In this document: in pieces, positions 241 through 20,240 of the stretch | How positions within the stretch are numbered: position 1 is the stretch's first letter | How the letters are laid out: every line of letters starts with the position of its first letter | Source of the DNA: a bacterium | Lineage (GTDB): Bacteria; UBP6; JAFGXH01 | Length of the DNA: 22,535 nt | Assembly (NCBI GenBank): GCA_027064085.1 | Contig: JAMOQH010000008.1 | Coordinates: 1 to 22,535, forward strand | Direction of reading: 5' to 3' | Made by a program: the position numbers and the translations under genes | Notes under the pieces: generated by a model | Databases searched by the model: none | What the model was told of the DNA's origin: nothing | What the model saw: the letters and a program-made list of their open reading frames with translations, nothing else

Positions 241-3200
241 ATGAAAAATTTTATATTATTAATTGTATTTTTGGTTTCTTTACTATTTACTGCATGTGGT
301 AATAACGAAGGAAATAATGATAATACAACACCAAAGGATTGTAATCCTAAGTGTGCTGATTATCAAATATGTAATTTTCAAGGAAAATGTGTTACAGATA
401 TAGGAAAATGCGAAACAAGCAGTGATTGTTCTCCTGCTACTCCTATTTGTAACACAGAAACTCATCTTTGTGAAAAGGAAAATAATAATTTTGAGTGTTA
501 TGATCTTGATGGTGATGGTTTTGGTGCTTTTTGTGACAAAGGTGAAGATTGTGATGACAGTAATCCTCTTGTGAATCCTGATGCAAAAGAGTTATGTGGT
601 GATAAAATTGATAATAACTGTAATAGGGTTGTTGATGAGTTTTGTTCTTGCATAAATGGTGAAATTAAAACATGCCATACTAGCTCTGATGATAAAAGAA
701 ATGTTGGTGTGTGTAAAGATGGTTATAAAGTTTGTGAAAATGGAAGCTTTTCAAGTTGTCAGTATGAAATTTTACCCTCAGATGAAGTTTTTGATGGATT
801 GGATAATGATTGTGATGGCAATACCGATGAAGGTTTTGAAGTAAATGCATGTGGTGAAATTGGGGTTGTTCCTGATGAGATATGTGGCAATGGACTTGAT
901 GATAATTGTAATGGTATCATAGATGAAAACTGTGGTTCTTGTACTGAAGGTGATGTAAGAAACTGTTATAGTGGAATTCCTAAGAACTTAGGAGTTGGTG
1001 AATGCAAAGCAGGTACTCAAACTTGTACAGATGGAGTTTGGGGAGTATGCGAAAATGAAATAAAACCAACTTCCGAAATATGTGATAATAAAGACAATAA
1101 TTGTGATGGTAAAATTGATGAGGGCGTTTTAAATGCATGTGGTACTTGTGGTGATGTTGCTGAAGAAACATGTGATGGAATAGATAATAACTGTAATGGT
1201 GAAATTGATGAAGGATTGGTTAATGCCTGTGGTGTTTGTGGGGTAGATACTCCTGTTCCTGATGAAGTCTGTGGAAACGGCATAGATGATAACTGTGATG
1301 GCATAATTGATGAAGGTTGTACTTGTTCCTTACAACAAGAATGCTATTTGGGGCCAGATGGAACTAGAGGAAAAGGTGTTTGTAAAGCAGGTGTTCAACA
1401 ATGTATTGCTGGTGAATATTATGATGCAAATTGTGTGGGGCAAGTTATTCCATCTATTGAATTATGTGATGGGTTAGACAATGATTGTAATGAAAAAACT
1501 GATGAAGGTTTTAATGTTGGTGAATCTTGTTTTGTTGGTTTAGGTGCCTGTAAGACAGAGGGTATTATGGTTTGTGATTCTGATAAGCGTGGAAGTCATT
1601 GTGAACCTAATTCTGAAATCCCTGAACCAACAGAAGAAATTTGCGATGGTATTGATAATAATTGTAATGGCTCTGTTGATGAAAATTTTGCACTTGTTAA
1701 TCAGGAATGTTTTAAAGGAATTGGAGCTTGTCAAGGAGCTGGTACATATATTTGTAATGATGCTAAAAATGGAGTTATTTGTACAGCAGAAGAAGACTTA
1801 AGTAAGGCTAGTGAAGAAATTTGTGATCAAATGGATAATAACTGTAATGGATTTATTGATGAAGGTTTTGAATTTGTTGGAACTACATGTCAAGGAGGTA
1901 AAGGCGTTTGTGCAACAACAGGTATTTATCAGTGTTCAGATGATGGTTTGGAAATTGTTTGTGATGCAACAGGAGATACTTCCTTGCAAGTAGATGAAAT
2001 TTGTGGAGATAATCTAGATAATGATTGTGATGGTTTTATTGATGAAGGATTTGAACAATTAAATGAAAGTTGCAGTTCAGGTAGGGGAGTTTGTGCAACA
2101 ATAGGTAATTATCAATGCTCTGATGATGGTCTAAGTCTTATTTGTGATGCCGAGGAGGACCTTTCACTGGCTAGAACTGAATTATGTGGGGATAATGAAG
2201 ATAACGATTGTGACGGACTTGTAGATGAAGGTTTTAACTTAGTTGGTTTTGAGTGTGAAGCAGGCTTAGGTGTTTGTAAGGAAAGTGGGCATTATGTTTG
2301 TAGTGATGACAAGCTTTCCGTTGTTTGTGATGCTGTTGAAAATGGTAATGCAAATCAAGAACTTTGTGGAAACAATACTGATGATAACTGTAATGGCTTG
2401 GTTAATGAGGGATTTGAAGATGAGGGGAAACCATGTACTGTTGGTTCTGGTCCTTGCCAAATGACTGGGGTGTGGGTTTGTGATGCTGATAATGATAGTA
2501 AATCATTGAAATGTTCTGTTGAACCTGATATGACAAAAGCAAGTATTGAACTATGTGGAGATAATGAAGATAATGACTGTGATGGACTAATTGATGAGGG
2601 ATTTGACTTAATTGGAGCAATTTGCAAAGTAGGTAAGGGCGTTTGTAAAAAAGAAGGTGTTTACCAATGTTCACTTAATAAATTAGAGTTAGAATGTAGT
2701 GAAACAGAAGATTTAAGTTTAAAAACAACTGAATTATGTGGTGATAACCTTGATAATGATTGTGATGGACTAATTGATGAAGGTTTTAATGTTGGTGAAT
2801 CATGTAGTGCTGGGTATGGTCCCTGTAAGGTTGAAGGTGGTGTTTATATTTGTGATGTAAATGATTTAACAAAAACAGTGTGTAATGTCTCTCCTGATAT
2901 GAGTAAGGCAAGTCAAAATGAATTATGTGGAGACAATATTGATAATAATTGCAATGGTTATGTTGATGAGGGATTTGAAATGCTGACTGTTTCCTGTTCC
3001 AATGGTGTTGGTGCATGTAAAAGAAATGGGGAATACCAATGCAGTGAGGATAAGCTAAGTCTTGAATGTAGTGCTACTCCAGGAACACCATCTGCAAATG
3101 AACTTTGTGGAAATAATATTGATGATAACTGTAATGGTTTGGTTGATGAAGGTTTTGAGCTAGAAGGTGAAACCTGTTATGCTGGTAAGGGAGTTTGTCA

Positions 3201-4566
3201 AGGTTCAGGCACTTATAGTTGTAATTCTAGTCTATTATCTCTTGATTGTTCTGCAACTGAAGATTTAAGTCAACAAACAACAGAATTGTGTGGAGATAAT
3301 AAAGATAATGACTGCGACGGTTTTGTTGATGAGGGATTTACAATTGGTGCTACATGTAGCAATAATGAATTAGGTTTATGCTTAAGAACTGGAGTTACAG
3401 AATGTGTAAATGGAGCAGAAGTTTGTTCCGCAGGGCATGTTGATGGTACTCCCGAGGTATGTGATGGAAAGGACAATGATTGTGATGGTGAAACTGATGA
3501 AGATTTTACTGAATTGTATGATGTTTGTTATTCTTCTGGTTTAGGTGTATGTAAAACTCAAGGTGTTAAAATATGTGACCCTAATGATAACACATTATTA
3601 ATATGTTCCGCAGAAGATATTGCAGGAACAACAGAAGTTTGTAATGATGGTCTTGATAATGACTGTGATGGAGATACCGATTATGATGATGATGATTGTG
3701 AATTACCTACTTATAGTTGTGGAACCGTTCCGACCAATCCTGTTATTTTAGAAACAGTTAATCTATCTAATACAGTAACAGGTGTTCCTGATTCTATGTT
3801 TTGGGAGGTGGTATCTCAACCAGTAGGTTCTAATATTATCTTAACAACTCCAACTTCTGCAAGTACTTCTTTTGTACCTTTAATTGCTGGAGATTATCAC
3901 ATTAAGTTTACTATAACTATTGATGGAACGGAGCATGTTTGTGATTATGATAATATTTTTATACAGCCATCAGATACATTGAATGTTTCTATTCTTTGGC
4001 AAACTCCTGCTGACTTTGACTTACATTTGTTAAAGCCGGGTGCAACTGTTAATGATTGGCAAACCGAGAACGACTGTTATTATGATAATTGTAAAGTTTG
4101 TGCTCAAGATGTTCAAATTCCTAATCAAACTTGTAGTCCAAATAATCAAATAGAATGGTTTACCTCAAATTCTTCTGATGATGCTCAATTAGATGTTGAT
4201 AATAGAATTGGTTGTGCTGATACAGATGATAATGGAAGTTTTGAAACTTGTTATCCTGAAAATACTTCTATAGAAAAGCCACATAATGGAAGTAGTGCAG
4301 AACATTACACTGTAGGACTTTATTATTATTCAGGCAAGCCAAATGGTCGTGAAGGCGAGGGGAGTTCAAATGTTCAAGATGTTACTGTAACAATTTACTG
4401 CAGAGATGATATTCATGGCAGTATTCAAGAGCATAAATATCTTTGTTCTGATATGAATGTTGGGGAATGGTGTTTTGTAAGGGATATTTTATGGGAAAAC
4501 AGTACTTGTACAATTGGAAGTGCAACAAGAGTTATCTCGGGAAATAAATCTGCAACTGATTTATAA
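241..4566 (+). CDS. Giant lipoprotein with 19 MopE-type metal-binding repeats and a YfaP-like C-terminal domain
   Basis: This 1441-residue protein starts with a lipoprotein signal peptide; the lipobox FTAC puts the lipidated Cys at residue 19, followed by Gly, consistent with outer-membrane sorting. Residues about 88-1158 hold 19 copies of a Cys-rich motif of the form E-[LIV]-C-[DG]-x-x-x-D-[ND]-[ND]-C-[DN]-G-x-x-D-E-G-F. Only the first copy has the full MopE form with an upstream DLDGDGFG and DCDD segment. From about copy 7 on, copies alternate with linkers carrying a C-x(5)-G-x-C pair and a second Cys pair, giving a module of about 55-60 residues. Residues about 1160-1245 look like a PKD-like beta domain. 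Residues about 1247-1410 carry DFDLHLL, typical of YfaP/DUF2135-like domains, with many Asp and Cys. MopE-type motifs are predicted to bind metal, and the paired Cys suggest disulfides. The start has a GGGGGA ribosome site at 231-236 overlapping the previous stop. A binding role (calcium, copper or surface) is inference. Confidence 0.88.
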   Translation: MKNFILLIVFLVSLLFTACGNNEGNNDNTTPKDCNPKCADYQICNFQGKCVTDIGKCETSSDCSPATPICNTETHLCEKENNNFECYDLDGDGFGAFCDKGEDCDDSNPLVNPDAKELCGDKIDNNCNRVVDEFCSCINGEIKTCHTSSDDKRNVGVCKDGYKVCENGSFSSCQYEILPSDEVFDGLDNDCDGNTDEGFEVNACGEIGVVPDEICGNGLDDNCNGIIDENCGSCTEGDVRNCYSGIPKNLGVGECKAGTQTCTDGVWGVCENEIKPTSEICDNKDNNCDGKIDEGVLNACGTCGDVAEETCDGIDNNCNGEIDEGLVNACGVCGVDTPVPDEVCGNGIDDNCDGIIDEGCTCSLQQECYLGPDGTRGKGVCKAGVQQCIAGEYYDANCVGQVIPSIELCDGLDNDCNEKTDEGFNVGESCFVGLGACKTEGIMVCDSDKRGSHCEPNSEIPEPTEEICDGIDNNCNGSVDENFALVNQECFKGIGACQGAGTYICNDAKNGVICTAEEDLSKASEEICDQMDNNCNGFIDEGFEFVGTTCQGGKGVCATTGIYQCSDDGLEIVCDATGDTSLQVDEICGDNLDNDCDGFIDEGFEQLNESCSSGRGVCATIGNYQCSDDGLSLICDAEEDLSLARTELCGDNEDNDCDGLVDEGFNLVGFECEAGLGVCKESGHYVCSDDKLSVVCDAVENGNANQELCGNNTDDNCNGLVNEGFEDEGKPCTVGSGPCQMTGVWVCDADNDSKSLKCSVEPDMTKASIELCGDNEDNDCDGLIDEGFDLIGAICKVGKGVCKKEGVYQCSLNKLELECSETEDLSLKTTELCGDNLDNDCDGLIDEGFNVGESCSAGYGPCKVEGGVYICDVNDLTKTVCNVSPDMSKASQNELCGDNIDNNCNGYVDEGFEMLTVSCSNGVGACKRNGEYQCSEDKLSLECSATPGTPSANELCGNNIDDNCNGLVDEGFELEGETCYAGKGVCQGSGTYSCNSSLLSLDCSATEDLSQQTTELCGDNKDNDCDGFVDEGFTIGATCSNNELGLCLRTGVTECVNGAEVCSAGHVDGTPEVCDGKDNDCDGETDEDFTELYDVCYSSGLGVCKTQGVKICDPNDNTLLICSAEDIAGTTEVCNDGLDNDCDGDTDYDDDDCELPTYSCGTVPTNPVILETVNLSNTVTGVPDSMFWEVVSQPVGSNIILTTPTSASTSFVPLIAGDYHIKFTITIDGTEHVCDYDNIFIQPSDTLNVSILWQTPADFDLHLLKPGATVNDWQTENDCYYDNCKVCAQDVQIPNQTCSPNNQIEWFTSNSSDDAQLDVDNRIGCADTDDNGSFETCYPENTSIEKPHNGSSAEHYTVGLYYYSGKPNGREGEGSSNVQDVTVTIYCRDDIHGSIQEHKYLCSDMNVGEWCFVRDILWENSTCTIGSATRVISGNKSATDL
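502..3714 (+). repeat. Array of 19 MopE-type coding repeats
   Basis: The array covers residues about 88-1158 of the large lipoprotein. The core codon pattern (GATAATGATTGTGATGG or a close variant) recurs with few changes, especially in copies 10-17, which are near-identical in protein (GDNxDNDCDGxxDEGF). Such homogeneity suggests recent internal duplication or recombination between units. The antisense open frames here (for example 1017-1304 and 2355-2674) are by-products of this repetition. Confidence 0.85.
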
Positions 4567-11016: not shown

Positions 11017-12627
11017 ATGCTAACAGTTAACAATTTAGGGCTTTCATACGGAAATCAACAACTTTTTAAAGATGTAAATATTAAGTTTACACCAGGACAC
11101 TGTTATGGAGTTATTGGTGCAAACGGTGCTGGTAAATCAACTTTTTTAAAAATTTTATCAAATGAAATTGATGCAGATACTGGAGATGTATTTATTACGC
11201 CAGGTGAAAGAATGGCTGTTTTAAAACAGGACCACTTTCAATATGAAAATTTTGATGTTCTTGAAGCTGTTATTATGGGAAACGAAGTCCTTTATAGTAT
11301 AATGAAGGAAAAAGATGCAATTTATGAAAAAGAAGATTTTACTGATGAAGATGGTGTTAGAGCTTCTGAATTAGAAATTGCTTTTAGCGAAATGGAAGGT
11401 TGGGGGGCTGATAGTCAGGCTGCAAGTATATTAAAAGGTTTGGGAGTAAAAGATGAATTTCATTATAAAAAAGTAAAGGAACTGGAAGATAAGGATAAAA
11501 TTAAAGTTTTATTGGCACAAGCACTTTTTGGTAATCCAGATATTTTACTCCTTGATGAGCCAACTAACCACCTTGATATAAAATCTATTGTTTGGTTAGA
11601 ATATTTTATTCAAAATTTAAAATCTATAGTTATTGTTGTTTCTCATGATAGACATTTTTTAAATAAAGTTTGTACTCATATAGCAGATATTGATTATAGT
11701 CAAATTAAAATATTTGTTGGAAATTATGATTTTTGGAAAGAATCAAGTGATTTAGCATTAAGATTAAGGCAAAAAGCTAATCAAAAAATATCAGATAAGA
11801 GAAAGGAACTTGCTAGTTTTATTCAAAGATTTTCAGCAAATGCATCTAAAGCTAAACAAGCAACTTCTAGGTCTAAATTATTAGAAAAATTAACACTAGA
11901 AGATTTACAGCCAACAAGTAGAAAATATCCTTATATTAATTTTAAACCCAAAAGAGATATTGGTAATACTATTTTAACAGTAGAAGAGTTAAATAAATCC
12001 ATTGATGGGGTAAAAATCCTAAATAATATTAGTTTTGATTTGCAAAAAGGAGATAAAGTTGCTCTTGTTGGTGAAAATGAAATTGCAAAATCAATGTTAA
12101 TTCAAATTTTATCAGAAGAAGAAGGAGTTAATCAGGATAGTGGAGAATTTAAATGGGGAGTAACGGTAGTTAAATCCTATTTACCGAAAGATAATTCAAA
12201 TTTATTTAATGGAGTTGATTATAATCTAATTGATTGGATGAGGCAATTTTCAGAAGAAAAAGAAGAAAGTACCATGAGGTCTTTTTTGGGAAGAATGTTA
12301 TTTTCAGGAGAAGAAGTTTATAAAAAGGTTGAAGTTTTATCTGGTGGAGAAAAGGTTAGGTGTGTAATATCAAAATTGATGTTAACAGGAGCAAATACTT
12401 TACTTTTAGATGGTCCTACTAATCACCTAGATTTAGAGTCAATTTCCTCATTTAACGATGCTTTAATTGATTTTAAAGGAATACTATTAATGTCTTCACA
12501 TGATCATAAATTTATTCAAACTGTTGCAAATAAAATTTTAGAAGTAAAAGATGATGGAACAATGGAACTTTATTATTCTACTTTTGATGAGTATTTAGAA
12601 AAAAAGTTAAAAGAGGCTAAGGATTAA
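11017..12627 (+). CDS. YbiT-type ABC-F ATPase with one degenerate ATP site
   Basis: This 536-residue tandem ABC protein lacks membrane segments and matches the E. coli YbiT type of ABC-F factor in length and in the linker (FIQRFSANASKAKQATSRSK). ABC-F proteins act on ribosomes, usually at the E site. Domain 1 has an intact Walker A (GANGAGKST, 34-42), Walker B with catalytic Glu (LLLDEPTNHLD, E181) and switch His210. Its signature is lost (LEDKD, 156-160). Domain 2 has an intact signature (LSGGE, 441-445) and His495, but Walker A reads GENEIAKSM (352-360) and Walker B reads LLLDGPTNHLD with Gly466 for the catalytic Glu. Composite site 1 (Walker A1/B1 plus signature 2) is therefore intact and site 2 fully degenerate. 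It overlaps the next gene by 3-5 bases. Confidence 0.9.
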   Translation: MLTVNNLGLSYGNQQLFKDVNIKFTPGHCYGVIGANGAGKSTFLKILSNEIDADTGDVFITPGERMAVLKQDHFQYENFDVLEAVIMGNEVLYSIMKEKDAIYEKEDFTDEDGVRASELEIAFSEMEGWGADSQAASILKGLGVKDEFHYKKVKELEDKDKIKVLLAQALFGNPDILLLDEPTNHLDIKSIVWLEYFIQNLKSIVIVVSHDRHFLNKVCTHIADIDYSQIKIFVGNYDFWKESSDLALRLRQKANQKISDKRKELASFIQRFSANASKAKQATSRSKLLEKLTLEDLQPTSRKYPYINFKPKRDIGNTILTVEELNKSIDGVKILNNISFDLQKGDKVALVGENEIAKSMLIQILSEEEGVNQDSGEFKWGVTVVKSYLPKDNSNLFNGVDYNLIDWMRQFSEEKEESTMRSFLGRMLFSGEEVYKKVEVLSGGEKVRCVISKLMLTGANTLLLDGPTNHLDLESISSFNDALIDFKGILLMSSHDHKFIQTVANKILEVKDDGTMELYYSTFDEYLEKKLKEAKD

Positions 12628-13819
12628 AGCTTTATATTTAGAAAGTTTTTATAGTGGTTCACATAAGTTTTTTTTAGATAATTTAATAAAATATAGTAAA
12701 TTTGGTATAAAAAAAATTGTAATTAAAGAAAAATCTTGGAGGTTAAATTACGAAAAATCTGCTCTTTATTATTATGGAAAAATAAAAAATATAGAACAAT
12801 ATGATTTAATTATCGCTTCTTCTTTAACCGACATAAGCACCTTAAAAGCTTTATATAAAAAATTTCCTAAAATTGTTATGTATTGGCATGAAAATCAATT
12901 TGAATATCCCAATAAAAAGGCTCATTATATTGGTTTTAAAGAATTACAAAATTTTATTTCCAGTGATGTAAATATATTTAATTCCAATTTTCATAGAGAT
13001 GATTTTTATAAAAAGGCTAAGAAAGAGTTGAAAAAATTTAATTTGAATGATTTGTATGTTGTTTTAGAAAAAAAATATAATTCTTCTTTTATTGTATATC
13101 CTGGATTTGATATGAAAAACATAGATAATCAATTATCCACATGTAGAGACGATGGCATTGCCTCGTCTCTGCATCAAGATGGCATTGCCTCGTTTGGTAA
13201 TCTGAGCCAAGGCAATCTGAGCCAAGGCAATCTGAGCCAAGGCAATCTGAGCCAAGGTAATCTGAGCCAAGGCAATGCCTTGGCTGTACGGGAAGAAAAT
13301 AAGATCATTTTATGGAATCATAGGTGGAGTAAAGATAAGGATTATTTTATGTTTTTCTCTATGATGAGGAATTTAAAGAAAAATGGATATAAATTTAAAT
13401 TAAATATTTTTGGTGAAACAGTTTTAGCAAATAATGATGATTTTATATATTTTAAAAAGCAAATGGGAGATTATATCAATAAATTTGGCTTTTTAAGCAG
13501 TAAACTAGAATATTATAAAGAAGTTTCTAAGTCTGATATTGTTATCTCAACAGCTATTGAGGAGAATTTTGGTATTTCCATTGTTGAATCTATGTATTTA
13601 GGAGCAACACCTATTTTACCCAATAGGCTTTCTTATCCAGAATTAATTCCTATAAAATATCATAATGATATTTTATATAATTCTTATGACGATGCATTGT
13701 TTAAAATAAAATATATTTTAAACAATAATAAATACTTAAATTTATCTGATTATATGAATAAGTATGATATTCGAGAATCAATTAATCAATTAAATGAGAT
13801 TATAAAAAACTTACATTGA
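12623..13819 (+). CDS. Glycosyltransferase, DUF3524 / tRNA-queuosine mannosyltransferase (QTMAN)-like, probable ATT start
   Basis: The first ATG in frame is at 12878, but the frame is open upstream to a stop at 12608-12610, and those codons encode conserved family sequence: IKALYLESFYSGSHKFF matches the usual M-K-x-L-x-x-E-x-F-Y-x-G-S-H-K start of DUF3524. No ATG, GTG or TTG occurs there. An ATT at 12623, six bases after GAGG (12613-12616), sits where the family Met belongs. That gives 398 residues. The HENQFEYP motif and the segment with NSNFHRDDF follow, then WNHRW and a GT-B C-terminal part with EENFGISIVES (nucleotide-sugar site). Family members such as GTDC1/QTMAN mannosylate queuosine in tRNA-Asp; a bacterial role is inferred. 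Residues about 174-222 are a repeat-element insert between the two domains. The start overlaps the ABC-F stop, implying coupled expression of two translation-related proteins. Confidence 0.78.
   Translation: MKALYLESFYSGSHKFFLDNLIKYSKFGIKKIVIKEKSWRLNYEKSALYYYGKIKNIEQYDLIIASSLTDISTLKALYKKFPKIVMYWHENQFEYPNKKAHYIGFKELQNFISSDVNIFNSNFHRDDFYKKAKKELKKFNLNDLYVVLEKKYNSSFIVYPGFDMKNIDNQLSTCRDDGIASSLHQDGIASFGNLSQGNLSQGNLSQGNLSQGNLSQGNALAVREENKIILWNHRWSKDKDYFMFFSMMRNLKKNGYKFKLNIFGETVLANNDDFIYFKKQMGDYINKFGFLSSKLEYYKEVSKSDIVISTAIEENFGISIVESMYLGATPILPNRLSYPELIPIKYHNDILYNSYDDALFKIKYILNNNKYLNLSDYMNKYDIRESINQLNEIIKNLH
13141..13174 (+). repeat. Left hairpin of the inserted element
   Basis: The arms ATGTAGAGACGA (13141-13152) and TCGTCTCTGCAT (13163-13174) pair over 12 positions with one G-T wobble. 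Inside, GGC/GCC can extend the stem. The TGTAGAGACG...CGTCTCTACA form resembles widespread bacterial dispersed palindromes, recalled from general knowledge rather than searched. Confidence 0.8.
13196..13270 (+). repeat. Five 15-bp tandem repeats encoding NLSQG
   Basis: The unit GG(T/C)AATCTGAGCCAA occurs five times without gaps, followed by a partial sixth. Units 1 and 5 have GGT and units 2-4 have GGC. Because the unit is a multiple of three, copy-number change by slippage would lengthen or shorten the linker by five residues without a frameshift. Confidence 0.95.
13265..13285 (+). repeat. Perfect 21-bp palindrome at the right end of the element
   Basis: AGCCAAGGCA, a single central A (13275), then TGCCTTGGCT. 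The left half coincides with the tandem unit (AGCCAAGGCAAT), so the tandem array looks like an expansion of half of this palindrome. Confidence 0.9.
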
Positions 13820-13856: not shown

Positions 13857-15196
13857 GGAGGGTTTATGAGATATGTTATTTTTTCATTTTTATTATTGTT
13901 TTTTTATTCATGCGAAAATGCTGATTATTCTACTGAAAATTTAGCAAAAAGCAAAAATATTGTTACTTTTAATTTAACTGGAGATACTTGTTCTTCAACA
14001 ATAGAAGAGATTAGTTCATCAACGACTATTAATTCCACTACTAGTGGATTTAGCAATAGTTTTTTGGCACCAAATTCTTGTAGTGATAGTCCTAGTCCTG
14101 ATAAAATCTATAAAATAATATTAGATTCTACTAAAAAATTTACTGCAGAGATATTTAATAGTGATTTAGACAGTGTATTATACTTAAAAAGAAGCTGTGA
14201 AAGTGATGCAATTATCTGTAATGATGATAAAAATGATAATGATTATCAAAGTAAAATTTCTGCTGTTTTAGAGGCTGGAGAATACTATTTAATTGTTGAT
14301 GGTTATGGGCAAAATAGTGTTGGAAGTTTTGAATTAAAGATTGATATTGATAGTGCAATTGGAGAGTCCTGTACGAATACAAAATGTAAAGCTGACTATA
14401 AATGTGAAATCCAAAATAATACTCCTATTTGTATTTGTAATTCAGGAAATTGTGATACTCAGGAGGGTTTAGCAGAAGGAGATATAACAATAAACGAGTT
14501 TATGGCTAATCCAAGTGGAAGTGATAGGTATAATGAATGGGTAGAGCTTAAAAATAATACCAATAATGATATTTCTATTGAAAATCTTAAAATTATGAAA
14601 GATAGCCGTTCTTATGTTTTAAATTCTAAAAACTTAGTTATTAAAGCTAATTCTTATTTTTTAATAGTTAAATCTCCTAATGTAAATTTAGAAACTTACG
14701 ATGCAATTATATCTAACTTATCATTAAGCAATAGTGCTACTCATACCTTAACTTTATTGGTAAATGATGTTCAAGTTGATCAAATAACTTATAACGGTTC
14801 AAGTAGTGGAGTTTCATCTCAATTTGACGGAACACAATGGTGTAAAGCTAAAACAGTAATTTCTGCTAATAATTCAGATAAAGCAACTCCGTTAAAGGAT
14901 AATACTTTATGTGGTGATTTATGTAGTCATAATTGTAATAATCATGGTGTTTGCAATGAAATAGATGGAAGTTGTGAGTGTAACACAGGATATAAAGGTG
15001 ATATTTGTAACGAATGTGAAACTGGGTATGAACTAAATGGAAATAACTGTGATGAAGTATTATCTCAATTACTTAATGAAAGAGATATAATTATTACAGA
15101 GTTTATGCCTAATCCCGAAGGGAGTGATACAATAGGTGAGTATATTGAATTGTACAATAGAACAGATCAAGATTTATCTTTAGATGGTTTGAAAAT
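13857..15196 (+). repeat. 1340-bp block identical to 17085-18424 (copy 1)
   Basis: From the ribosome site GGAGGG through codon 443 the DNA matches copy 2 base for base wherever I compared it, at a constant offset of 3228. The match stops at 15197 (T against A) and the sequences diverge strongly at once. On the left it stops at the Shine-Dalgarno (C13856 against A17084). Confidence 0.9.
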
Positions 15197-16985
15197 TATA
15201 GGAGATGATTCTGTTTATCATTTACCTAATGGTTACACTATAGATGCTAAATCTCATTTCGTAATTGGAAAAAATATAGCTGCTGCAGCTGGAAATGTTG
15301 ACGCTGTAATATCATCAATGAGCTTTAATAATACAGGTGAGCATATAATAATACTTGAATTAGATGATTTAAGTCTTGATATTATAAGTTATACTGATTC
15401 AGTAGAAGGAAAAGCAAAACAGTTGGATAGAAATCAGTATGATAATGATTTTGATGATTTGAATTGGTGTGATAAAGATAGTACTCCTAAACTTAAAAAT
15501 TTAGCTTGTGTTGAGCTTGACTATTGCGAAAATATAAATTGTAATAATGGTGAATGTATAAATGGCATAGATGGATATACTTGTATTTGTCAAGTTGGTT
15601 ATACAGGTGATAATTGTGATTCTTGTGATGGTAACAATCCAGATTGTGACTCAGCTCCTATTTCTAAATCAATAATTATAACAGAAATAATGATTAATCC
15701 TGATGGAAGTGATAATCTTGGCGAATGGATAGAAATTTATAATACAACAAATAATAGGCTTAAACTACAAAATGTTAAAATTCAAAAAGATGATGTGGTT
15801 TATGATGTAACGCTTATAAATGATAAAATAAATCCACATTCTTATTTTTTAATTTCAAGAAATTTGAATTTAGATAATGTCGGTGGAACGGCTACTTTTA
15901 ATTTTAATAATATCGGTACTCATAATTTAACTTTATTTGTTAATTCTGTTAAGATAGATTCAATGACTTACAATGATTCAGTTCCAACAAGAGCTTTTCA
16001 GTTAGATGTTTCTGTTTTAGATGCTGATGGCAATGATGATGTAAGTAACTGGTGTTATGGAAGAGTTGAAATAGCTAATCTTAGAGATAAGGGTACTCCT
16101 GGTGCTCCAAATAGAGGTTGCGGAGGTTGTGCTGCAATAGAGTGTCCATTAAATAGTCATTGTGAGTTAAATGATGGAAGTGCATCGTGTTTTTGTGAAA
16201 CAGGCTATGAGCTAGATAATAATTTAGGTATCTGTGTTATGACAGAGCAATGTGGAGTTTTATATGATAATGTTAGATCTTTAAGAGGTGAAGACCTAAG
16301 GCTGGCATTACAACAATTAACAGGGCAAAGATATAATCCTATTAAATATAGCGAATCCAAGGAGATTATGTATAGAGAAATTGATATTGATGAAAATCAT
16401 CAAACCCAATGTGTTTATACTGGAAGAAAAATGACAATAATAGATGAAGAACCATTAGATTCAAGAAATGGAAACTGTGATATTTGGAATTGTGAATGTG
16501 GAAATAAGGGTATGAATACAGAGCATACATGGCCTCAATCTAAATTTGATAAACAAGAGCCTATGAAAGGAGATCTACATCATTTATTTCCTACAGATGC
16601 TTGTACTAATAGTATGAGGTCAAGTTTTCCATTTGGTAAGGTATTATCTCCAAGTGGAATATTTGGTTCAGAAAACTATAAAGATGCAAATGGTAATTCT
16701 TATGGATACAGCAAGCTTGGAAATGGTTTACATGGAGTAGTTTTTGAGCCACCTTTAATACACAAGGGAGATGTCGCAAGAGCAATGTTTTATTTTATTG
16801 TTAGATATGGAAATTATAGTAATTTTCTTGATGATGAGCAAGAGGCTGTGTTAAGACAATGGGCTCATGATGATCCTGTTTCTGAATATGAAAGAATTAG
16901 AAATACTAAAATTGAAAAAGTTCAGTGGAACAGAAACCCTTTTGTTGATTGTCCTCAATTTCTAGATTTTATTTCAAATTTTTAA
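13866..16985 (+). CDS. Surface lipoprotein nuclease: PPC-like, three lamin-tail and three EGF-like modules, endonuclease I (copy 1)
   Basis: A 1039-residue protein with lipoprotein signal ending FYSC (Cys16), then Glu. Residues about 75-163 resemble a bacterial pre-peptidase C-terminal (PPC) domain. Three lamin-tail domains begin at about 206, 406 and 602, each opening with I-[TI]-x-E-[FI]-M-x-N-P-x-G-S-D and then E-[WY]-[VI]-E-[LI]. Each is followed by an EGF-like Cys module. Residues 796-1039 are an endonuclease I (EndA/NucM) domain: NTEHTWPQSKF (His887), DLHHLFPTD (His905, His906), FEPP...GDVARAMFYF and NRNPFVDCPQ. This family cuts DNA non-specifically in the periplasm or outside the cell with a metal-bound His and Asn. 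The product is probably a tethered extracellular DNase for nutrient or biofilm DNA (inference). Residues 1-443 are identical to the next gene. Confidence 0.9.
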   Translation: MRYVIFSFLLLFFYSCENADYSTENLAKSKNIVTFNLTGDTCSSTIEEISSSTTINSTTSGFSNSFLAPNSCSDSPSPDKIYKIILDSTKKFTAEIFNSDLDSVLYLKRSCESDAIICNDDKNDNDYQSKISAVLEAGEYYLIVDGYGQNSVGSFELKIDIDSAIGESCTNTKCKADYKCEIQNNTPICICNSGNCDTQEGLAEGDITINEFMANPSGSDRYNEWVELKNNTNNDISIENLKIMKDSRSYVLNSKNLVIKANSYFLIVKSPNVNLETYDAIISNLSLSNSATHTLTLLVNDVQVDQITYNGSSSGVSSQFDGTQWCKAKTVISANNSDKATPLKDNTLCGDLCSHNCNNHGVCNEIDGSCECNTGYKGDICNECETGYELNGNNCDEVLSQLLNERDIIITEFMPNPEGSDTIGEYIELYNRTDQDLSLDGLKIIGDDSVYHLPNGYTIDAKSHFVIGKNIAAAAGNVDAVISSMSFNNTGEHIIILELDDLSLDIISYTDSVEGKAKQLDRNQYDNDFDDLNWCDKDSTPKLKNLACVELDYCENINCNNGECINGIDGYTCICQVGYTGDNCDSCDGNNPDCDSAPISKSIIITEIMINPDGSDNLGEWIEIYNTTNNRLKLQNVKIQKDDVVYDVTLINDKINPHSYFLISRNLNLDNVGGTATFNFNNIGTHNLTLFVNSVKIDSMTYNDSVPTRAFQLDVSVLDADGNDDVSNWCYGRVEIANLRDKGTPGAPNRGCGGCAAIECPLNSHCELNDGSASCFCETGYELDNNLGICVMTEQCGVLYDNVRSLRGEDLRLALQQLTGQRYNPIKYSESKEIMYREIDIDENHQTQCVYTGRKMTIIDEEPLDSRNGNCDIWNCECGNKGMNTEHTWPQSKFDKQEPMKGDLHHLFPTDACTNSMRSSFPFGKVLSPSGIFGSENYKDANGNSYGYSKLGNGLHGVVFEPPLIHKGDVARAMFYFIVRYGNYSNFLDDEQEAVLRQWAHDDPVSEYERIRNTKIEKVQWNRNPFVDCPQFLDFISNF

Positions 16986-17084: not shown

Positions 17085-18424
17085 GGAGGGTTTATGAGAT
17101 ATGTTATTTTTTCATTTTTATTATTGTTTTTTTATTCATGCGAAAATGCTGATTATTCTACTGAAAATTTAGCAAAAAGCAAAAATATTGTTACTTTTAA
17201 TTTAACTGGAGATACTTGTTCTTCAACAATAGAAGAGATTAGTTCATCAACGACTATTAATTCCACTACTAGTGGATTTAGCAATAGTTTTTTGGCACCA
17301 AATTCTTGTAGTGATAGTCCTAGTCCTGATAAAATCTATAAAATAATATTAGATTCTACTAAAAAATTTACTGCAGAGATATTTAATAGTGATTTAGACA
17401 GTGTATTATACTTAAAAAGAAGCTGTGAAAGTGATGCAATTATCTGTAATGATGATAAAAATGATAATGATTATCAAAGTAAAATTTCTGCTGTTTTAGA
17501 GGCTGGAGAATACTATTTAATTGTTGATGGTTATGGGCAAAATAGTGTTGGAAGTTTTGAATTAAAGATTGATATTGATAGTGCAATTGGAGAGTCCTGT
17601 ACGAATACAAAATGTAAAGCTGACTATAAATGTGAAATCCAAAATAATACTCCTATTTGTATTTGTAATTCAGGAAATTGTGATACTCAGGAGGGTTTAG
17701 CAGAAGGAGATATAACAATAAACGAGTTTATGGCTAATCCAAGTGGAAGTGATAGGTATAATGAATGGGTAGAGCTTAAAAATAATACCAATAATGATAT
17801 TTCTATTGAAAATCTTAAAATTATGAAAGATAGCCGTTCTTATGTTTTAAATTCTAAAAACTTAGTTATTAAAGCTAATTCTTATTTTTTAATAGTTAAA
17901 TCTCCTAATGTAAATTTAGAAACTTACGATGCAATTATATCTAACTTATCATTAAGCAATAGTGCTACTCATACCTTAACTTTATTGGTAAATGATGTTC
18001 AAGTTGATCAAATAACTTATAACGGTTCAAGTAGTGGAGTTTCATCTCAATTTGACGGAACACAATGGTGTAAAGCTAAAACAGTAATTTCTGCTAATAA
18101 TTCAGATAAAGCAACTCCGTTAAAGGATAATACTTTATGTGGTGATTTATGTAGTCATAATTGTAATAATCATGGTGTTTGCAATGAAATAGATGGAAGT
18201 TGTGAGTGTAACACAGGATATAAAGGTGATATTTGTAACGAATGTGAAACTGGGTATGAACTAAATGGAAATAACTGTGATGAAGTATTATCTCAATTAC
18301 TTAATGAAAGAGATATAATTATTACAGAGTTTATGCCTAATCCCGAAGGGAGTGATACAATAGGTGAGTATATTGAATTGTACAATAGAACAGATCAAGA
18401 TTTATCTTTAGATGGTTTGAAAAT
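17085..18424 (+). repeat. 1340-bp block identical to 13857-15196 (copy 2)
   Basis: This is the partner of the block at 13857. Promoters and distal coding regions have diverged while this part has not, which points to homogenisation after duplication rather than a wholly recent duplication. Confidence 0.9.
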
Positions 18425-20240
18425 AATAAGAGATGATAGCTCTTGGAATATTCCAAGTGGAAATACCATAAATGCAAATTCATATTTTGTAATTGCAAGG
18501 AGTAGTAGTGCTGCTAATGGAAATGTAGATGCTATCATTTCTTCTATGAGCTTTAGTAACACTGGAGACCATACTATAACAATTGAAATTGGTGACTTAG
18601 CTCTTGATACTGTTACTTATAGTGGCTCCATTGAAGGGCAAGTTAAACAATTAGATATAAATAAATACGACACAGAGTTTTCTCCTAATAATTGGTGTGA
18701 TAAAGATGGTTCACCGAAAGCAGAAAATCTACTTTGCAATGATGTTGACCCTTGTGAAAATATAAATTGTAATAATGGAGAATGTGTTGCTGATGCAAGT
18801 GGATATATTTGTGTTTGTCAGCCTGGTTTTGGTGGTAATAACTGTGAAATTTGTGATGAAGCAAACCCCGATTGTCCAAGAATGGCTAATCCTAATGATT
18901 TAGTTATAACAGAACTTATGATTAATCCTGATGGTAGTGATAGTTTAGGTGAATGGATAGAAATTTATAATGCTACAGACCATAAGATTAAATTAGAAAA
19001 TGTTAAAATTCAAAAAGATTCTATTGTTTATAATGTAAACCTAATAAATACAGTAATAAATCAAGGTGCTTATTATTTAATTGCAAGAAACTCAAGTATT
19101 CCAAATGCAGATGCTATTTCATCATTTAGTTTAAATAACACTGGAGCACATACTATTTCTTTACTTGTAAATAGTTTTATTATTGATACCATAAGTTATG
19201 AATCATCAAAATCAGCAATTTCCTTTCAATTAGATGCTAGTATTTTAAGTACAGATAGAAATGATGATGTTAATTTTTGGTGTGATGGAACTGCCAATAT
19301 TGAAAACTACAATGATAAAGGAACTCCAAAGGCTCCAAACAGAGGTTGTGGAACATGTGCAACATTAGAATGTCCTTTAAATAGTGCTTGTGTAAGCAAT
19401 GGGGAAAATGCTAGTTGTGTATGTAATACAGGCTATGAAATGAATAATGAAATTGGTATCTGTACAATGATTGAAACTCAAGAAAATGGATATTGTGGAG
19501 TTTTATATGACAATGTTAGGAACTTAACGGGTGATGAATTAAAAATAGCATTACAGCAATTAACAGGTCAAAGATATAACCCAGTAGAATACGATATCTC
19601 AAGAAAGATTATGTATAGGGAAATTGATATGTTTATGAAAAATGGTAAAAAATATGTCCGAGGTGTTTATACAGGACGGGTAATGGAAATTAAAGATGAT
19701 GAACCGTTAGATTCAAGAAGTGGAGATTGTAATATAAAAACATGTAGATGTGGAAATAAGGGTATGAATACAGAGCATACATTCCCGCAATCTAAATTTG
19801 ATAAGCAAGAACCTATGAAAGGAGATGTTCATCATTTATTTCCTGTAGATGCTTGTACAAATGGAAGGCGTTCAAGTTTTAAATTTGGTAATGTTGTTGT
19901 TGCAAATGGTGGAACTTTTGGTTCTATGGATTACAAAGATGAATTTGGAAATCCTTATGGCTTTAGTAAGCTTGGGTCATCAAATGGTAGAACTGTTTTT
20001 GAGCCACCTTTAATACATAAAGGTGATGTTGCAAGAGCAATGTTTTATTTCGTAATAAGATATGGAAATTACAGTAATTTTCTTGATGATGTGCAAGAGG
20101 CTGTATTAAGGCAATGGGCTATTGATGACCCCGTTTCTGAATATGAAAGAATTAGAAATAGTAAAATTGAAAAATTGCAGTGGAACAGAAATCCATTTAT
20201 TGATTGTCCGCAATTTATTAATGAAATACAAGATTTCTAG
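17094..20240 (+). CDS. Surface lipoprotein nuclease, tandem paralog (copy 2)
   Basis: A 1048-residue protein with the same architecture as copy 1: lipoprotein signal (FYSC, Cys16), PPC-like domain, three lamin-tail and three EGF-like modules, and an endonuclease I domain from about 801. Catalytic-type motifs are intact: NTEHTFPQSKF (His895), DVHHLFPVD (His913, His914), FEPPLIHKGDVARAMFYF and NRNPFIDCPQ. Residues 1-443 are identical to copy 1; the second lamin-tail half, the third module and the nuclease have diverged but align throughout. Differences in the nuclease include HTF for HTW, a longer segment with MFMKNGKKYVRG, and RRSSFKFGN for MRSSFPFGK, so the two may differ in substrate or activity. 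It has its own promoter and GGAGGG ribosome site at 17085-17090. Confidence 0.9.
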   Translation: MRYVIFSFLLLFFYSCENADYSTENLAKSKNIVTFNLTGDTCSSTIEEISSSTTINSTTSGFSNSFLAPNSCSDSPSPDKIYKIILDSTKKFTAEIFNSDLDSVLYLKRSCESDAIICNDDKNDNDYQSKISAVLEAGEYYLIVDGYGQNSVGSFELKIDIDSAIGESCTNTKCKADYKCEIQNNTPICICNSGNCDTQEGLAEGDITINEFMANPSGSDRYNEWVELKNNTNNDISIENLKIMKDSRSYVLNSKNLVIKANSYFLIVKSPNVNLETYDAIISNLSLSNSATHTLTLLVNDVQVDQITYNGSSSGVSSQFDGTQWCKAKTVISANNSDKATPLKDNTLCGDLCSHNCNNHGVCNEIDGSCECNTGYKGDICNECETGYELNGNNCDEVLSQLLNERDIIITEFMPNPEGSDTIGEYIELYNRTDQDLSLDGLKIIRDDSSWNIPSGNTINANSYFVIARSSSAANGNVDAIISSMSFSNTGDHTITIEIGDLALDTVTYSGSIEGQVKQLDINKYDTEFSPNNWCDKDGSPKAENLLCNDVDPCENINCNNGECVADASGYICVCQPGFGGNNCEICDEANPDCPRMANPNDLVITELMINPDGSDSLGEWIEIYNATDHKIKLENVKIQKDSIVYNVNLINTVINQGAYYLIARNSSIPNADAISSFSLNNTGAHTISLLVNSFIIDTISYESSKSAISFQLDASILSTDRNDDVNFWCDGTANIENYNDKGTPKAPNRGCGTCATLECPLNSACVSNGENASCVCNTGYEMNNEIGICTMIETQENGYCGVLYDNVRNLTGDELKIALQQLTGQRYNPVEYDISRKIMYREIDMFMKNGKKYVRGVYTGRVMEIKDDEPLDSRSGDCNIKTCRCGNKGMNTEHTFPQSKFDKQEPMKGDVHHLFPVDACTNGRRSSFKFGNVVVANGGTFGSMDYKDEFGNPYGFSKLGSSNGRTVFEPPLIHKGDVARAMFYFVIRYGNYSNFLDDVQEAVLRQWAIDDPVSEYERIRNSKIEKLQWNRNPFIDCPQFINEIQDF

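Follow-up and report, generated by a model that had tools for sequence, protein, structure and literature searches.

A YbiT/YkpA-type ABC-F ATPase with one intact and one degenerate composite ATP site, a pattern recurring across its branch of the family

The window analysed here is the whole of a 22,535-nucleotide stretch of contig JAMOQH010000008.1, which belongs to a draft bacterial genome of 195 contigs (assembly GCA_027064085.1), and the gene under study is a complete open reading frame for an ATPase with two ABC domains (NBD1 and NBD2). The two composite ATP sites of such a protein are assembled crosswise, site 1 from Walker A1/B1 and signature 2 and site 2 from Walker A2/B2 and signature 1. 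The coordinates, frame and motifs of the gene, which are as the original prediction had given them, are set out below with the conservation of each motif among 233 YbiT-family proteins or, for site 2, the 221 that form the degenerate clade described later.

11017..12627, + strand: YbiT/YkpA-type ABC-F ATPase, 536 aa, complete ORF
11116..11142, + strand: Walker A1 GANGAGKST, residues 34-42 (site 1), intact; Gly39 and Lys40 in 233/233, residue 41 Ser in 231 and Thr in 2
11227..11229, + strand: Q-loop 1 Gln71 (site 1), intact; 233/233
11482..11496, + strand: signature 1 LEDKD, residues 156-160 (site 2), degenerate; strongly variable across the family
11554..11577, + strand: Walker B1 and D-loop DEPTNHLD, residues 180-187, with Glu181 (site 1), intact; Asp180 and Glu181 in 233/233
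11644..11646, + strand: H-loop 1 His210 (site 1), intact; 233/233
11686..11943, + strand: PtIM linker (ABC_tran_Xtn, PF12848), the ABC-F hallmark, residues 224-309; Pfam 66.3 bits
12001..12003, + strand: A-loop 2 position Ile329, not aromatic (site 2); aromatic in 9/221 clade members
12070..12096, + strand: Walker A2 GENEIAKSM, residues 352-360 (site 2), degenerate; full consensus in 3/221 clade members
12187..12189, + strand: Q-loop 2 position Lys391, not Gln (site 2); Gln in 6/221 clade members
12337..12351, + strand: signature 2 LSGGE, residues 441-445 (site 1), intact; Ser-Gly-Gly in 233/233
12412..12414, + strand: Gly466 codon GGT replacing the catalytic Glu of Walker B2 (site 2); GGA and GGC in two sister species
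12499..12501, + strand: H-loop 2 His495 (site 2), kept; Gln, Lys, Arg or Tyr in 36/221 clade members, same-phylum relatives among them

Directly after the ABC-F gene lies a QTMAN-type (tRNA-queuosine mannosyltransferase-like) gene at about 12605-13819, the open frame of which extends upstream to the ABC-F stop without ATG, GTG or TTG; it contains a 15-bp tandem repeat (5.2 copies, 13199-13276) read as in-frame GNLSQ repeats. Two tandem genes at 13866-16985 and 17094-20240 encode secreted endonuclease-I proteins (lamin-tail domains, EGF, Endonuclease_1); their first 1331 nt are identical and the later parts differ, and the pair is a recent duplication or gene conversion. At the other end of the window, 241-4566 encodes a secreted protein of 1441 residues with many MopE-type metal-binding (DNDGD-like) motifs. 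When six neighbour proteins were compared with the flanking regions of five relatives, none had a syntenic match, so that no functional partner can be inferred.

Tandem ABC domains on a single chain (PF00005 matched at two stretches by Pfam, and two ABC folds in the AlphaFold2 model), together with the PtIM linker and the lack of a transmembrane domain, place the protein in the ABC-F family. Within this family it is nearer to YbiT than to EttA, Uup, YheS or the resistance factors: E. coli YbiT is the top match in a PDB sequence search at 469.6 bits (YheS 250, EttA 241) and is also the closest PDB structure when the fold of the model is compared. The top NCBIfam model is likewise NF011646 (YbiT-type ABC-F ATPase, PRK15064), at 614.8 bits, which lies under its curated cut-off of 762, and by this sequence score the protein is named YbiT-type and not equivalog. 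The curated models for the antibiotic-resistance (ARE) factors Msr, Vga, Lsa, Sal and OptrA all scored far under their cut-offs, and a resistance role was rejected. The same genome encodes one other full-length ABC-F, which is 31% identical. ABC-F proteins characteristically bind the ribosomal E site when in the ATP state; for E. coli YbiT this is known from its PDB entries, which are ribosome complexes titled ‘Non-hydrolytic’ and ‘Hydrolytic’ conformations. It is highly probable, in our estimation, that the window protein is a housekeeping translation factor of the YbiT/YkpA type with one hydrolytic ATP site.

Site 1 is canonical throughout: all three of the parts named in the original prediction (GANGAGKST, DEPTNHLD and LSGGE) are intact. 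At site 2 the three corresponding parts are all non-canonical, as had been claimed: signature 1 reads LEDKD, Walker A2 reads GENEIAKSM, and the Walker B2 region reads D465-G466-PTNHLD. To these our analysis adds two losses, those of the Q-loop Gln (Lys391) and of the A-loop aromatic residue (Ile329). With site 2 degenerate, the protein does not possess the two complete composite ATP sites of a canonical dual-site ATPase. Two glycines of the GxxGxGK consensus of Walker A2 have gone (G355E, G357A), yet the motif is degraded and not erased, because Lys358 and Ser359 remain; also still present at site 2 are the Walker-B Asp465, the D-loop Asp472 and the H-loop His495. In the AlphaFold2 model (mean pLDDT 87.9, pTM 0.81) NBD2 is a complete ABC fold, but the P-loop 2 helix begins three residues early, at 355 and not at 358, the equivalent of the Lys40 at which its NBD1 counterpart begins; this single ligand-free model suggests that the nucleotide loop of site 2 is shortened. 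E. coli YbiT has the same architecture and length, is 41% identical over its full length and also has a non-canonical signature 1 (VAPG), but it keeps Walker A2 (GTNGVGKST), the Glu of Walker B2, the second Q-loop Gln and the second His, whereas of these four the window protein keeps only the His. The comparison with E. coli YbiT drawn in the original prediction was therefore right.

What had been presented as a feature of one protein proved to be a property of a branch. We compared 233 distinct YbiT-family proteins from Bacillota, Bacteroidota, Fusobacteriota, Spirochaetota and the phylum of the window, counting identical proteins from overlapping samples once. Among ten site 1 positions checked, Gly39, Lys40, Gln71, Asp180, Glu181, His210 and the Ser-Gly-Gly of residues 442-444 were invariant, and the sole variation was that at residue 41. 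Unlike these, the site 2 positions vary freely, residue 466 being Glu in 144 proteins, Asn in 53, Asp in 20, Gln in nine, Gly in six and His in one. In the degenerate clade, which comprises 221 of the 233 proteins, the full Walker A2 consensus, the Q-loop Gln and the A-loop aromatic residue survive in only three, six and nine members, respectively, although the NBD1 equivalent of the A-loop 2 position is aromatic in 213. Glu466 has been lost in 89 of the 221, Lys358 in 84 and His495 in 36, so that at least one of the three is missing from 157 members and all three are present in 64. Asp465 (219/221) and Asp472 (221/221) are, by comparison, near-constant, which argues that NBD2 is not freely decaying. 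The motifs further indicate that loss tracks the composite site and not the domain, because signature 2, which lies in NBD2 and serves site 1, is invariant, while signature 1, which lies in NBD1 and serves site 2, is lost. The uniqueness of the window protein was accordingly rejected, YbiT/YkpA-type proteins from all five of the sampled phyla having the same degenerate site; judged from its sequence, it is an advanced member of a widespread ABC-F branch with one intact ATP site. In the sampled Fusobacteriota (L150-L177 and L230-L253) the catalytic Glu of site 2 is replaced by Asn, in the form DNP[TSN][ND]HLD, with few exceptions.

A tree of 131 representatives, computed with the motif columns excluded, placed the degenerate clade (122 rows) apart from E. 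coli-type YbiT, the split having an SH-aLRT value of 100; this was a quick tree in which many inner nodes are weakly supported. The minimum numbers of changes between the canonical and lost states, which are approximate and may include reversals, were 15 for Glu466, 17 for Lys358 and 12 for His495. Gly466 is also found in L102 and L103, the sister of which (L104) has Glu, and in L184, and must therefore have arisen more than once. The YbiT subfamily was defined to include both E. coli YbiT and B. subtilis YkpA by Murina et al. 2019 (PMC6723617), and we place YkpA in the degenerate clade on that assignment and on where the tree puts its Bacillaceae relatives, rather than on the sequence of YkpA itself. 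As a control, 37 non-YbiT ABC-F paralogues were collected from Spirochaetota and Fusobacteriota genomes, with the second ABC-F of the window's genome as the query; many of these genomes carry a degenerate YbiT too. All 37 have kept both sites, with the Gly, Lys, Gln, Glu, His and signature of site 2 intact; a single Ala in signature 1 was the lone deviation. Neither the genomes nor the alignment can therefore account for the loss, which is specific to the YbiT branch.

Two sister species from the same family as the window (G001 and G002, the sources of L042 and L009) encode orthologues that are 69-70% identical to the window protein, and the replacement of Glu466, whose conservation in the lineage was a check put forward with the original prediction, is found in both. 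The record of L009 is titled Anaeromyxobacter dehalogenans, yet its protein is the same as that of G002 and the title looks wrong. The three species specify this Gly by three different codons (GGT in the window; GGC and GGA in its sisters), and this weighs heavily against two trivial explanations. A draft genome in many contigs could have been misassembled or misread at codon 466 and in Walker A2, but Gly466 in two independent sister genomes, encoded differently, leaves such an error with next to no probability, and we rejected it. Relaxed selection on a decaying or redundant gene, with the changes falling at random, might be read from the somewhat lower conservation of NBD2 than of NBD1 (62.7 vs 72.2% identity to L009). 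However, L009 and L042 differ by a dS of 0.54 and a dN of 0.031 (dN/dS 0.057, and 0.045 for NBD2 alone), the Gly is maintained by three synonymous codons, the window species and both sisters all have an intact ORF, and site 1 is untouched; decay is thus very improbable, and a pseudogene was rejected on the sister dN/dS. The original prediction had preferred selection to random decay, and the strong purifying selection (dN/dS about 0.06) and the recurrence of the site split in 233 relatives bear this out; because of that recurrence, and because both sites are intact in the 37 paralogues, the split is more than chance. Members of other families within the same phylum (L091-L093) show a different loss at the same composite site: Glu466 is kept, but the switch His of site 2 is replaced by Gln.

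Our current working hypothesis, which we hold to be fairly probable, is that YkpA-type YbiT proteins form a natural single-site ATPase family, in which site 2 degenerated in the common ancestor, Glu, Lys and His were then lost repeatedly and independently, site 1 was frozen, and ribosome binding and release are powered by the hydrolysis of a single ATP in each cycle. With two ATP molecules bound, ABC-F factors close; they bind the E site, and their departure requires hydrolysis (PMC11282234). In the window protein, ATP at site 1 would close both NBDs and the protein would bind the ribosomal E site, with the PtIM placed near the peptidyl-transferase centre. Site 2 would close as a structural or non-hydrolytic ATP-bound interface, the fixed half of the clamp. 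Since Lys358, Ser359, Asp465, Asp472 and His495 are kept, site 2 could hold nucleotide without hydrolysing it, the first three residues possibly still holding Mg-ATP, and the simplest reading is then that hydrolysis at site 1 alone would trigger release and reset the factor. Hydrolysis at site 1 only is something that we infer from the motifs. Like its characterised relatives, the window protein probably helps translation through charged stretches; YkpA/YbiT relieves stalling at poly-Lys and poly-Glu (PMC11381351).

A counterpoint to the single-site hypothesis is that the lost residue differs across the clade, being Glu, Lys or His, and some of the 64 members with all three may hydrolyse slowly at site 2. 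For the window protein itself, the same five retained residues might serve a slow two-site ATPase in which another residue, or His495/Asp465, replaces Glu466. We consider this improbable, as signature 1, the Q-loop Gln, the A-loop aromatic residue, two P-loop glycines and the Glu have all gone together, Lys or His is also missing in other clade members, and no compensating residue at 466 is common to the clade. Somewhat less unlikely, though still doubtful, is a variant of the one-site hypothesis in which site 2 is a nucleotide-free or regulatory surface for some other ligand or a ribosomal element. Many clade members have Ile, Val or Thr for the P-loop Lys and no aromatic residue in the A-loop, and the predicted shortening of P-loop 2 would fit such a surface, but Asp465 and Asp472 are near-invariant and the window protein retains Lys358 and Ser359, a combination that fits Mg-nucleotide.

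Unequal sites are made plausible by other asymmetric ABC proteins. The closest are MsrD and, as cited there, Vga(A), which are likewise two-site ABC-F ribosome factors with functionally unequal sites (PMC10314930). MsrD, however, has both Glu residues, its asymmetry having been shown by mutation, and the site 2 mutant E434Q is the more damaging, being more toxic and losing resistance (PMC10314930); function through site 1 only cannot therefore be assumed for all ABC-Fs, and the division of labour must differ among their branches. ABCE1 is also a ribosome-bound twin ATPase whose sites do different work, site II governing release (PMC6124641), but it belongs to another family, has an Fe-S domain and no PtIM, and both its catalytic Glu residues are present. 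The exporters CFTR, MRP1, TAP and TM287/288 likewise combine one consensus with one degenerate composite site, and their non-canonical motifs from both NBDs gather at one site, as here (PMC7756269). These are membrane transporters from other ABC branches, in which the degenerate site is NBS1 and not site 2, and the analogy is mechanistic only. In the open literature, to which our search was confined, we found no earlier account of an ABC-F or YbiT protein with such a site.

Most studies of how the work is shared between the two ATP sites of ABC-F proteins have used double EQ2 mutants. In the YkpA-type branch the single-site experiment has been repeated by evolution, with natural Gly, Asn, Asp and Gln at the position of the site 2 Glu, and the interest of the finding lies in the breadth and repetition of these losses. 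It extends the degenerate-site theme of the ABC exporters to a soluble translation factor, and it predicts that the clade's factors can complete their cycle with site 1 hydrolysis alone and that the site 1 mutation E181Q would be enough to trap them on the ribosome.
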